Assembly (NCBI GenBank): GCA_022651385.1
Contig: JALCQR010000002.1
Location: forward strand, 62,001-126,000
Source of the DNA: Clostridia bacterium
GTDB lineage: Bacteria; Bacillota; Clostridia; Lachnospirales; Anaerotignaceae
Reading direction: 5' to 3'
DNA: 64,000 bases
Part shown: piece by piece, positions 19,364 to 39,460 of the stretch
Layout: the number at the start of each line of letters is the position of its first letter
Numbering within the stretch: position 1 is the stretch's first letter
Translations under genes and position numbers: made by a program
Notes under the pieces: generated by a model
Seen by the model: the letters and a program-made list of their open reading frames with translations, nothing else
What the model was told of the DNA's origin: nothing
Database searches by the model: none

Positions 19364-20362
19364 TCAGCTGCTGTGGCTAATTATAAGCATTTCAACAGCA
19401 AGGTCGTCTTTTACAGCTCCGGTCTTAATTGCAAAATCTGTATTCAGACAATCTTTAAGCGCCAACTTAAGCATTTCCGGCGTAAAATTTTTGCCTTGTG
19501 CTATGCAATCCCTTACGACAAAATCTCTCAGTCCTGTAAAAGATACTATTTCAGACCGAGTTTTACCCTCTTTCGTAAGATTTTGGCATTGCAGTATGCT
19601 CCTGAACTGCCGGGCAACCATCGAAAGTATCATAAAAGGTGCTTCCCTTGCAGTTAACAGCTCATGATATATTCTCACGGCTTCAGCGCTTTTTCGTTTT
19701 CCTATCATTGCTACAAGGTCAAAAACTTTTGATTCAAGCGTTTTGGTACATATAGCATCAATATCATTTTTTGTTATTTCACCGCCGTTTAATTTATATG
19801 ATATAAGTTTTTCAATTTCCCTTAGGGCATTTTCCATATCAGTACCGACTACAGAGAAAAAATAGCTCAATACACCGTTTTTACATGCAATTCCCTTTCT
19901 TCTAAAAATTCCGGCTGCCCATTTTATAAGGTCAGATTCTTTTAACGATGTGCAGTTTTCCGCAAGTCCTGTTTTGTTTACTATTTTATATAGACTGCTT
20001 CTTTTATCCACGTCATTTTCAACAAAAAGAAGACATATGTTTTCGGAAAGCGACGGTATATACGCAGTCATTTTTTCGCTGTCACTTTTTCTTCCGGCTT
20101 TAAAAAGGCCGCTGTCTTTTACAATCACAAGCCGCCTTTCACACATAAACGGCAGTGTATCACAGGCATCAGTCACCTTATTTATATCTGAAGCACCGTC
20201 AAATATATCCATATTCATCTCAGGTGACAGGCACCCCTTCATTACAGAATCCGTTATTCTTTTCTCATTAAGTTTTTTAAGGTACGCTTCATCACCGTAT
20301 ATAAGATAACATTTTCTTATTCTTCCGATTTTCACATCTTCTTTTATTGTGGCAATACCCAT
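19364..20362 (-). CDS. holA: DNA polymerase III subunit delta
   Basis: Clamp-loader delta subunit of 332 residues, which opens the sliding clamp. The N-terminus has the family motif YLIYGDEAYLKK (about 19-30), then a partial AAA+ fold. GTDMENALREIEKL and VFDLVAMIGKRKSAEAV (about 215-231) are typical HolA segments. Starts at ATG 20362 after AGGTG, overlapping the 3' end of comEC by 19 bases. The comEC-holA order is a standard Firmicute arrangement. Confidence 0.92.
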   Translation of the reverse strand: MGIATIKEDVKIGRIRKCYLIYGDEAYLKKLNEKRITDSVMKGCLSPEMNMDIFDGASDINKVTDACDTLPFMCERRLVIVKDSGLFKAGRKSDSEKMTAYIPSLSENICLLFVENDVDKRSSLYKIVNKTGLAENCTSLKESDLIKWAAGIFRRKGIACKNGVLSYFFSVVGTDMENALREIEKLISYKLNGGEITKNDIDAICTKTLESKVFDLVAMIGKRKSAEAVRIYHELLTAREAPFMILSMVARQFRSILQCQNLTKEGKTRSEIVSFTGLRDFVVRDCIAQGKNFTPEMLKLALKDCLNTDFAIKTGAVKDDLAVEMLIISHSS

Positions 20363-35919: not shown

Positions 35920-37125
35920 ATGCAGAATATAAGGAAAGTAACAAATGATATCTACTATGTTGGAGCAAGTAACAGACGCCTTTCGCTCTTTGAAAACGTC
36001 TACCCTATTCCGAGAGGAATATCGTACAACTCATATGTGCTTGTAGATGATAAAACCGTACTATTTGATACTGCCGATAAAATTGTTGAACTTCAGTTTC
36101 TTGAAAATGTTGAAGCCGCTCTTAACGGCAGAAATCTTGACTACATTGTAGTAAATCATATGGAGCCTGACCATTGCGCTGTCTTGGAAGAAATAATACG
36201 CAGATACCCTGACATAAAAGTAGTCTTAAATGCAAAAACAGTTAATATGGTAAAGCAGTTCTTTGATTTTGACATAGACAGCAGATCCGTTATAATAAAG
36301 GAAGGCGATAAGCTGGAAACAGGAAGACATACTTTAACATTTTTCATGGCGCCTATGGTACATTGGCCGGAAGTTATGATGACTTATGACATAACGGAAA
36401 AAATTCTTTTTTCAGCCGACGCTTTTGGTACTTTCGGGGCAATAAACGGAAATCTTTTTTCAGATGAGGTTGATTTTGAACATGAATGGCTTGATGATGT
36501 AAGAAGGTATTACACAAATATAGTAGGAAAATACGGCGGTCCGGTACAGACAGCACTTAAAAAAGCGTCTGCTTACGAAATAGACATTATAGCACCCTTG
36601 CACGGAGTTTTATGGAAAAAGGATATTATACCGGAATTAATCGAAAAATATACAAAGTGGGCTACCTACACTCCTGAGGATAAAGCGGTTATGATTGCCT
36701 ATGGTTCAGTTTACGGCAATACTCAAAACGCCGCAGAGATACTTGCATCAAAGCTTTCTGAAAAAGGAGTTAAAAACATAAAGCTTTATGATGTTTCAGT
36801 CACACATCCTTCATATATTCTGTCTGAGGCTTTTAGGTGCAGCGTTCTTGTATTTGCCTCTGCAACATATAATAACGGCATTTTCATAAATATGGAAAAC
36901 CTTCTTCATGATATTGCCGCTCACTGCCTCCAAAACAGAACTGTTGCCTTCATACAAAACGGTTCATGGGCTCCTGTAGCCGGAAAGAAAATGGAAGAAA
37001 TAATTTCTTCTCTTAAGGGAATGAACATCATAGAAAAGAAAGTCACAATTAAATCTTCCCTTAAAGAATCCCAGCTAAAAGACATTGAGGAGCTTGCAGA
37101 TGCAATTGTTGAAAGCCTGAAATAA
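35920..37125 (+). CDS. FprA-family A-type flavodiiron protein
   Basis: Flavodiiron protein of 401 residues that reduces O2 or NO to protect an anaerobe. The N-terminal metallo-beta-lactamase domain has the diiron ligands HMEPDHCA (about 80-87), then a later APMVHWPE and DAFG. The C-terminal flavodoxin domain from about 255 begins VMIAYGSVYGNTQNAAE, which binds FMN. Single gene with terminators on both sides. Electron donor genes such as rubredoxin are not nearby. Confidence 0.95.
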   Translation: MQNIRKVTNDIYYVGASNRRLSLFENVYPIPRGISYNSYVLVDDKTVLFDTADKIVELQFLENVEAALNGRNLDYIVVNHMEPDHCAVLEEIIRRYPDIKVVLNAKTVNMVKQFFDFDIDSRSVIIKEGDKLETGRHTLTFFMAPMVHWPEVMMTYDITEKILFSADAFGTFGAINGNLFSDEVDFEHEWLDDVRRYYTNIVGKYGGPVQTALKKASAYEIDIIAPLHGVLWKKDIIPELIEKYTKWATYTPEDKAVMIAYGSVYGNTQNAAEILASKLSEKGVKNIKLYDVSVTHPSYILSEAFRCSVLVFASATYNNGIFINMENLLHDIAAHCLQNRTVAFIQNGSWAPVAGKKMEEIISSLKGMNIIEKKVTIKSSLKESQLKDIEELADAIVESLK

Positions 37126-37147: not shown

Positions 37148-37199
37148 AAAATAAGTGTAATTGTTTGAGTATAATGTAACAGTTACACTTATTTTTTTT
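37148..37199 (+). terminator. Terminator after the flavodiiron gene
   Basis: Arms AAATAAGTGTAA (37149-37160) and TTACACTTATTT (37183-37194), followed by a run of eight Ts. The loop is long at 22 bases. Confidence 0.8.
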
Positions 37200-37269: not shown

Positions 37270-37293
37270 TGTAACGTTTTTATAAATCGCGTC
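37270..37293 (+). promoter_or_regulatory. Candidate ECF-sigma promoter upstream of the sigma factor gene
   Basis: TGTAAC at 37270-37275 and CGTC at 37290-37293, with 14 bases between, resemble the -35 and -10 elements of ECF-type autoregulated promoters. It lies 30 bases upstream of the start. The spacing fits ECF promoters, but the match is short. Confidence 0.5.
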
Positions 37294-37319: not shown

Positions 37320-37814
37320 ATGGATTCCATAGATGAAATATATGCCAAACATTCAAAAATGATATACTATTTCCTCTTATCTAAAACAAGTGACCGCGAT
37401 ACCGCAGAAGAATTAACTCAGGAAACATTTTATCAGGCAATAAAATGTATAAAATCATTTAAGGGAAAAAGCAGTGTTTCAACTTGGCTGTGCGGAATTG
37501 CCGAAAACGTATGGCATTCATGGCTTAGAAAACAGAAAAACACAATAAATACTTTAGATGAAGAAGCCTCAGCGGATTCAGTTGAGGACAAGCTGATAAT
37601 TAAATGGGATGCCAAAGAAATACTTAAATATCTGCATTCGTTAAATGAGCCCATAAGAGAAGTAATTTATCTAAGGCTTATTGGAAACTTATCTTTTAAA
37701 GATATAGGAGATATTATGGAAAAAAGCGAAAATTGGGCAAGAGTTAATTTTTACCGCGGCAAGGAAAAAATAATTAAGGAGGTTAAGAAAGATGAAAGAA
37801 AGGATACCCTGTGA
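37320..37814 (+). CDS. ECF-type RNA polymerase sigma factor
   Basis: Sigma-70 family ECF factor of 164 residues. Region 2 (about 10-75) includes DRDTAEELTQETFYQAI and STWLCGIAENVWHSWLR. Region 4 (about 105-160) includes LRLIGNLSFKDIGDIMEKSENWARV. It starts at ATG 37320 after AAGGAG. The anti-sigma gene overlaps its end by 23 bases, so the two are coupled. The signal and regulon are unknown, but the downstream DUF1287 gene is likely part of it. Confidence 0.93.
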   Translation: MDSIDEIYAKHSKMIYYFLLSKTSDRDTAEELTQETFYQAIKCIKSFKGKSSVSTWLCGIAENVWHSWLRKQKNTINTLDEEASADSVEDKLIIKWDAKEILKYLHSLNEPIREVIYLRLIGNLSFKDIGDIMEKSENWARVNFYRGKEKIIKEVKKDERKDTL

Positions 37815-38745
37815 AATTATTCAGGATTTACTGCCTTTATATATTGACGGCCTTACACAGGACAAAACAAATGAATATATTAGAGAGCACCTTAACAGCT
37901 GTGAAATATGTAAAAACAAATATAACAATATGACAGATAAAATCAGAAATGAGGAAAAAGAAAAGGAAATTTTTCCGGAAATCGATTACCTTAAAAAGGT
38001 AAAAAAGAAAAATCAAAAAAAAGTCGTTTTTTCAGCATTGGCTTCTTTTGCTATACTTATAGCAATTGTATTAAGCAAGCTCTACGTTTTTGGCTTCCCT
38101 ATAACCGATTATCATACACAAATGTCGGTTGCAGAACAAAACGCAGAAATAAAAGGACAAATATATAATCCTTCTTACGTATACAGTCATTATAAAATAA
38201 AAAACGGTAATATTATTATATACGGCTGTCTGTCATCCGTTTGGAATAAAAATCAAGATTTTTTAATAAATTATGACTGCTCATATGGCAATATTAATAT
38301 AAACAGAGAAACAATAACATCAAGCGGAAAAGTGATTACGGCTTTGGCAAATAAATTATACAGCATAAGAAATCCATATATAGGCGATATGCCGGCAAAC
38401 GGTGAAATTTCGGAAGCTCTCGGAATATGCAAAAATCTGGGAAATTATACAAATTCACTTCAGACAACAAAAGAGCCTTACGGCTGGACATTGGAATTTA
38501 CTGGGAATGTAACAAAATTTAATGAGACAAAATTTAATTCCACAATGCAGTCTTATGCATGTGTATTATTGGCAATGATAGATAACTGCGGCGAAATATC
38601 ATGGAACTATGTCTGTGACGGCAAACTGTGCACCAAAACATTTACTGCCGAAGACGCAAAGCAAATTACAGGCAACGACATAAAATCATATTCATCAAGC
38701 TCAGAAAACGTACAGAATTTGCTTAACTTGGTTAACATAAAATAA
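37792..38745 (+). CDS. Membrane-anchored anti-sigma factor with zinc-binding zf-HC2 domain
   Basis: Protein of 317 residues. The N-terminal zinc finger has C7, H33, C37 and C40 (EHLNSCEIC), typical of ZAS anti-sigma domains. A single transmembrane helix covers about 83-103, followed by an extracellular domain of about 210 residues with no recognised family. It holds the ECF sigma factor at the membrane until a wall or envelope signal arrives. The gene starts inside the sigma gene. Confidence 0.9.
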   Translation: MKERIPCEIIQDLLPLYIDGLTQDKTNEYIREHLNSCEICKNKYNNMTDKIRNEEKEKEIFPEIDYLKKVKKKNQKKVVFSALASFAILIAIVLSKLYVFGFPITDYHTQMSVAEQNAEIKGQIYNPSYVYSHYKIKNGNIIIYGCLSSVWNKNQDFLINYDCSYGNININRETITSSGKVITALANKLYSIRNPYIGDMPANGEISEALGICKNLGNYTNSLQTTKEPYGWTLEFTGNVTKFNETKFNSTMQSYACVLLAMIDNCGEISWNYVCDGKLCTKTFTAEDAKQITGNDIKSYSSSSENVQNLLNLVNIK

Positions 38746-38767
38746 AAATACTACGGAGGCGGTAAAA

Positions 38768-39460
38768 ATTAAGAAAAAAAATATTATTATTTTAATAATT
38801 GTTGTTTACGCAATTATTCGGCTGTTTTTCCTTTATCAGACCTTACACCAAAAACAGAAGTTTTATACCGCAGAAGAGCTTAACATAACTGAAACAAAAA
38901 GCGGTAATGATGAAGATAAAGACGGCATAGACGACTATACGGATATCTGTCTTGGCGCCAGAGAATACATCGAAACAAAACCTGTATACAAGAGTAAATA
39001 TTATGAAGGCGGTTACCCAAATGACAAATACGGCGTATGCACTGATGTAATTTGGCATGCTTTTTCCGCTGCCGGGTATGACTTAAAAAGCCTCGTTGAC
39101 ACAGACATTTCCAATAACAAGGACGCTTACGGTATTGAAACCCCTGACCCTAATATAGATTTCAGACGTGTGAATAATCTTAAAATATTCTTTGACCGAA
39201 ATGCGGAAAGCCTTAATACAAGCCTTGACAATCCTAAGGACTGGCAGGCCGGTGATATAGTGGTGTTTACAAAACATATTGCTATTTGCTCTGACAAACG
39301 AAATTCAAACGGTATTCCGTTTATAATCCACCACAGCAATATTGTCGAAGGCGCAACTGAAGCAGACGAAATGGGTAAATACACAATAGTCGGGCACTAC
39401 CGCTGGAATAAGGAAGCAAACGACGCCAAAAATTCTTGGGATGCCGTATCAAACCATTAA
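38768..39460 (+). CDS. DUF1287 family protein, membrane-anchored, with apparent ATT start
   Basis: Open frame of 230 residues with N-terminal transmembrane helix (about 6-23). The DUF1287 domain follows from about 60, with YEGGYPNDKYGVCTDVIWHAF, WQAGDIVVFTKHIAIC and IIHHSN. These contain the Cys and His residues of the NlpC/P60-like family. No ATG, GTG or TTG exists between the upstream in-frame stop and the first helix. ATT at 38768 sits eight bases after a strong GGAGG site. A GTG at 39170 would remove the helix and half the domain. It is 22 bases downstream of the anti-sigma gene, so is probably in the same operon. DUF1287 proteins may act on peptidoglycan. Confidence 0.8.
   Translation: MKKKNIIILIIVVYAIIRLFFLYQTLHQKQKFYTAEELNITETKSGNDEDKDGIDDYTDICLGAREYIETKPVYKSKYYEGGYPNDKYGVCTDVIWHAFSAAGYDLKSLVDTDISNNKDAYGIETPDPNIDFRRVNNLKIFFDRNAESLNTSLDNPKDWQAGDIVVFTKHIAICSDKRNSNGIPFIIHHSNIVEGATEADEMGKYTIVGHYRWNKEANDAKNSWDAVSNH

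Follow-up and report, generated by a model that had tools for sequence, protein, structure and literature searches.

The locus lies in a window of 64,000 nucleotides, which is the whole stretch of DNA analysed, and comprises three genes on the forward strand. The first (37320-37814) encodes an ECF-type sigma factor (Sigma70_r2, E 8.5e-15; Sigma70_r4_2, E 5e-6), and the second (37792-38745) encodes a zf-HC2/DUF4825 protein, the presumed anti-sigma factor (DUF4825, E 8.1e-24; zf-HC2, E 1.9e-7). Both genes start with ATG behind strong Shine-Dalgarno sequences. The third is a DUF1287 gene (38768-39460), and its product of 230 residues is presumed to be a membrane-anchored NlpC/P60-like protein from the PF06940 match, the residue conservation and a structure model. 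The stop of the zf-HC2/DUF4825 gene is located 22 nt ahead of ATT 38768, the codon in the start position of the DUF1287 gene. Before the sigma factor gene, the forward strand at 37270-37293 reads TGTAAC, 14 nt, CGTC; this resembles what we take to be an ECF-type promoter, as one would presumably expect of a sigma factor driving the operon in which it lies. At 37153-37190, behind the gene ending at 37125, the inverted repeat AAGTGTAA/TTACACTT precedes a T run and looks terminator-like by eye.

The DUF1287 frame extends over 38741-39460 of the forward strand (239 codons, uninterrupted), and the in-frame stop preceding it is TAA 38738-38740. The codons after this stop are AAT AAA AAT ACT ACG GAG GCG GTA AAA ATT. 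They contain a Shine-Dalgarno GGAGG (38755-38759, forward strand), which is separated by a gap of 8 nt from ATT (38768-38770), the sole near-cognate in-frame codon workably spaced from it. A canonical codon is first reached in frame at GTG 39170-39172, which lies 134 codons beyond ATT and has no Shine-Dalgarno. No ATG, GTG or TTG was found in the frame between the preceding stop and this GTG, and none begins at 38729-38798 in any of the three frames; within 38700-38830 the only such codons in any frame are TTG 38719, 38728, 38799 and 38802, all of them out of frame. A single indel therefore supplies no start, and the rescue of a normal start by a frameshift was ruled out. The observation of a DUF1287 gene without a canonical start and with ATT in the start position is confirmed. 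The preliminary description had stated that the frame and the domain continue upstream of GTG 39170, that ATT is the codon workably spaced from GGAGG, and that canonical codons are absent from the preceding stop to the start region; all three statements held, and the last one extends to every frame.

The duplex energy with the anti-Shine-Dalgarno (the standard sequence was assumed; the 16S gene of this genome was not found) is -10.4 kcal/mol at ATT 38768, compared with +0.1 kcal/mol at GTG 39170. The Shine-Dalgarno at ATT is somewhat stronger than the genome median (-9.8, from 372 Shine-Dalgarno-supported canonical starts), and weaker than that of infC in the same genome (-13.9). The mRNA structure around ATT is unremarkable, with a mean unpaired value of 0.48; the median of 26 other starts is 0.47 (range 0.35-0.84).

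The encoded protein and its relatives

The PF06940 match of the DUF1287 protein scores 169.6 bits (curated cut-off 25) and covers positions 3-163 of the 163 in the profile (E 6.1e-50); the domain occupies residues 63-213 counted from ATT 38768. The N-terminal helix at residues 3-27 (38774-38848, forward strand) is seen in the model and as a hydrophobic stretch after lysines; it is the presumed anchor and presumably inserts in the membrane. The alignment A1 included 37 of the 43 proteins (L003, L006, L019, L023, L025 and L035 were omitted on account of their length, a truncation or a start in doubt), and the residues C91, G162, D163, H170 and H188 are invariant in it. Cys91 (39038-39040, forward strand) is presumed to be catalytic. 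The DUF1287 proteins were grouped with NlpC/P60-like enzymes having a Cys-His-His triad in the account of PMC10318531, which called their function unknown. After that account, we infer that C91, H170 and H188 form the triad and have the catalytic roles.

The structure model (pLDDT 93.0, pTM 0.85) could be superposed on the NlpC/P60 domain 8er5_A with Z 11.4 and rmsd 2.8 over 117 aligned residues; the Foldseek E-values were weaker, the best being 2.1e-3 and none below 0.001. A PDB search by sequence with the DUF1287 protein gave no result. In a leave-one-out test on 43 aligned proteins, none of 42 near-invariant columns is altered in the window protein. Another 15 proteins are likewise without departures, whereas L023 departs at 6 of 43 columns and L024 at 5 of 42. 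The 230 codons from ATT contain no stop, frameshift or near-invariant change that might mark a pseudogene. The protein looks intact, and the conserved residues, the GD motif and the predicted fold point to an NlpC/P60-like member; the product is presumed to be a membrane-anchored cell-wall hydrolase. The full domain, the invariant Cys and two His, the GD motif and the NlpC/P60-like model are shared with the PF06940 family as presented in PMC10318531. The protein itself is no different from that family; the gene is set apart only by its start codon and by its position after the sigma/anti-sigma pair.

Homologues of the DUF1287 gene were searched in three overlapping sets of 40, 392 and 58 whole genomes and in public genome contigs; the searches of plasmids and viral contigs gave no result. 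Another 42 loci (L002-L043) were read, some of them near relatives of one another, and duplicate genomes between the collections may remain among them; the matches in G177 and G042 and the second copy in G341 were left unread. In G341 there are two tandem DUF1287 matches (G341:C5:18314-18739 and 19406-20041), and the DUF1287 domain of L006 stands at the head of a frame of 846 codons that encodes further domains after it.

A canonical start is available in all 42 other loci, and none of them depends on ATT. The canonical start of most relatives stands near the place of ATT or upstream of it. When starts are chosen by Shine-Dalgarno strength, L003 and L019 receive an internal one, but both have canonical codons upstream. 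L032 has an ATG without a Shine-Dalgarno (59-60% identity over the matching part), and seven loci (L006, L011, L012, L013, L015, L026 and L037) have weak Shine-Dalgarnos of -3.0 to -4.9. The best-scoring genome match (G016/L002), from another genus of the same family with 57-59% identity, has GGAGG, 8 nt and ATG. The preliminary description had proposed to inspect orthologues for an ATG at the same position, and this relative has one at the same distance from GGAGG. Since the 42 other loci all have a canonical start, the ATT is, on this comparison, derived and private to this genome among the 43 loci read. Conservation of the non-canonical start was seen in 0 of the 42 relatives' loci, none of which is from the same genus; the genus is represented by one genome only, so the private ATT may not be fixed.

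The DUF1287 matches are found in 11 of the 58 family genomes. Outside the 42 loci, G123 has a DUF1287 remnant (L044/L045, G123:C1:1494947-1495206) in which the N-terminal part is missing and the frame is broken. This patchiness together with the remnant indicates that loss of the gene is not rare in the family, where it is dispensable.

The gene neighbourhood was also compared. A sigma/anti-sigma pair in front of the DUF1287 gene was found at none of the 42 other loci in the sequence compared, which is short for some of them; L033 has one weak sigma match, behind the DUF1287 gene. Adjoining sigma and zf-HC2/DUF4825 genes were read in five other genomes of the order (L098-L102; G111, G206, G151, G188 and G103), and no DUF1287 match was found near them in the stretch compared. 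The arrangement of sigma, anti-sigma and DUF1287 genes is, by this comparison, special to this genome among those read. The GC3 of the DUF1287 gene (0.387) is just above the range of 10 sampled window genes (0.264-0.377), an excess too small to argue from for a foreign origin.

Near-cognate starts in this genome and in other bacteria

The genome survey took in the window and a further 400 kb (464 kb in all, roughly 18% of the genome), in which 404 ORFs that do not overlap and are 120 aa or longer were scored. In 372 of them a canonical codon occurs no more than 70 codons from the frame opening and is backed by a Shine-Dalgarno scoring -6 or better; chosen by strength, these starts are 307 ATG, 43 TTG and 22 GTG. 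ORFs were flagged if a near-cognate codon with a strong Shine-Dalgarno stood ahead of any canonical codon, a rule that misses near-cognate starts if the frame offers a canonical codon earlier on or up to three codons later. Two of the 404 ORFs were flagged. In one of the two, an ATG follows shortly downstream behind a good Shine-Dalgarno of its own, and the DUF1287 gene is the only one of the 404 ORFs that depends on a near-cognate codon. The infC gene, which lies outside this sample, is flagged by the same rule, as it should be. Widespread unusual starts were not seen, with one convincing case among the 404 ORFs from about 18% of the genome. Among 26 ordinary window genes, 12 have a near-cognate in-frame codon at most two codons from their start. 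An ATT near a Shine-Dalgarno is unremarkable by itself; the absence of a canonical start is the unusual part.

The infC gene of this genome has an in-frame TGA followed by GCT ATT ACT GAG TTA ATG. Because the TGA stands directly before GCT-ATT, only this ATT or the ATG four codons later remain as starts, and the duplex energies are -13.9 at the ATT vs -1.9 at the ATG. This infC most likely begins with ATT, which makes ATT a plausible start in this genome and for the DUF1287 gene. The infC search matched 54 of 57 genomes and returned 30 loci; ATT stands at the same codon in all 31 family loci read (L046-L076, 30 relatives and this genome). A TTG or GTG is located between or within the Shine-Dalgarno and the ATT in 17 of the 30 relatives (12 with TTG two codons before ATT, and 5 with GTG three codons before). 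These codons were judged too close to the Shine-Dalgarno, and ATT is the likely start there, though not a forced one.

Several AUU and other non-canonical starts have been described. The infC of E. coli uses ATT with IF3 autoregulation, and that of B. subtilis also uses ATT (as given in PMC5472188 and PMC6097659). Outside infC, S. aureus cvfC1 is reported to have an AUU start with a strong Shine-Dalgarno and about 10% of the output of an AUG reporter; Staphylococci conserve both this AUU and the extended Shine-Dalgarno, and the two were seen by ribosome profiling (PMC13009471). The regulatory non-canonical starts presented in that paper (the infC, cvfC1 and ccpN group) are conserved. In Streptomyces, sigR has a GTC start that is repressed by IF3 within a sigma/anti-sigma system, according to PMC5472188; a reconstituted system is reported in which AUU decoded by a CAU anticodon yields less as IF3 rises (PMC10158994). 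The preliminary description had supposed an ATT start, with infC as the known case. The first part is supported by the infC of this genome and by the ATG at the same spacing in G016/L002; the second part is too narrow, given the AUU of cvfC1 (PMC13009471) and the GTC of sigR (PMC5472188).

The DUF1287 gene shares with infC, including that of its own genome, the layout of an ATT behind a strong Shine-Dalgarno without a usable canonical start. However, infC keeps its ATT at one and the same codon across all 31 family loci read, whereas the DUF1287 ATT occurs in 1 of 43, and infC autoregulation has no counterpart in the DUF1287 gene. As with cvfC1 in the account of PMC13009471, an AUU follows a strong Shine-Dalgarno in a gene unrelated to IF3; the cvfC1 AUU is conserved and its initiation was profiled, whereas the DUF1287 ATT occurs in one genome only among the loci read. 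The sigR case, as described in PMC5472188, also has a non-canonical start in a sigma/anti-sigma neighbourhood; but in that case it is on the sigma gene itself, and here the ATT is on the third gene, behind two regulators that have ATG.

Interpretation of the ATT codon

The best reading, and a reasonably probable one, is that a derived and weak AUU start is in use on an intact DUF1287 gene. ATT 38768 would initiate the gene; in this lineage it would have replaced a canonical start, the simplest route being a change of the third base of an ATG. The initiator tRNA would pair imperfectly with AUU and would be held by the strong Shine-Dalgarno. IF3 would discriminate against this codon, and we infer from the known cases that the start is probably IF3-sensitive. 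The output would be low, perhaps a tenth of that from ATG if the S. aureus cvfC1 case as reported in PMC13009471 carries over. The gene would be transcribed together with the preceding sigma/anti-sigma pair, and the weak start would keep down the amount of the product, presumably a cell-wall hydrolase anchored in the membrane. The lack of any other start, the Shine-Dalgarno and its spacing, which are as in a normal gene and in the close relative G016/L002, the conserved protein, the ATT of infC in this genome and the reports on cvfC1 and on IF3 argue for this reading. Against it stand the dispensability of DUF1287 in the family (11 of 58 genomes), a Shine-Dalgarno only somewhat above the median and weaker than that of infC, and an ATT that, unlike the regulatory starts presented in PMC13009471, is not conserved in the relatives; by this comparison it is not a conserved regulatory start of the infC, cvfC1 or ccpN kind.

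A rather unlikely alternative is that the start was recently lost: an ancestral ATG would have become ATT, the residual translation would be useless, and decay would be beginning. This would agree with an ATT that is derived and that no other locus read shares, with the patchy distribution of the gene, and with its decay elsewhere, as in the N-terminally deleted and frame-broken remnant of G123 and in L023, where the departures at 6 of 43 columns are lost conserved C-terminal positions. The clean run of 230 codons and the intact Shine-Dalgarno and spacing speak against old decay, but not against a very recent loss. What separates a weak start in use from a lost start is not so much the biochemistry as the importance of the remaining translation.

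An error of the sequence or assembly at 38770, the real codon being ATG, is unlikely and a little less credible than a lost start. One base separates ATT from the start codon of the relatives, and the assembly (G000) is a draft of 19 contigs in which the search for 16S rRNA gave no match. However, its completeness is 99.88 and its contamination 0.55, and no other such case is seen in the 404 ORFs; errors might hit any base, and a start would be removed by only very few of them. Nor can the error be an indel, as no start is available in any frame at 38729-38798.

The weak AUU start might further be an adaptive brake on a hydrolase gene that came to lie behind an ECF-type sigma/anti-sigma pair in this lineage, with the output set by sigma release and the IF3 level; this is quite doubtful. 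Translation of a 96-residue protein from GTG 39170, the first canonical codon in frame and the outcome of an ATG/GTG/TTG-only start rule, can hardly be credited and was rejected, as this codon has no Shine-Dalgarno (+0.1 kcal/mol), would give a product lacking Cys91, the N-terminal helix and the beginning of the domain, and is needed as a start by none of the 42 relatives.

If the DUF1287 gene is translated from the weak AUU start, a rare AUU-initiated gene outside infC is gained; AUU starts are already known, and this case would add one more. A gene finder limited to ATG, GTG and TTG would trim the gene to a fragment without the membrane helix and the cysteine, and therefore AUU-initiated genes may be under-counted. 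The ATG in the relative and the ATT here, with the same GGAGG and spacing, also offer a natural comparison for AUU initiation. Moreover, if the reading as an adaptive brake were true, there would be an IF3-sensed gene beyond infC in Anaerotignaceae.
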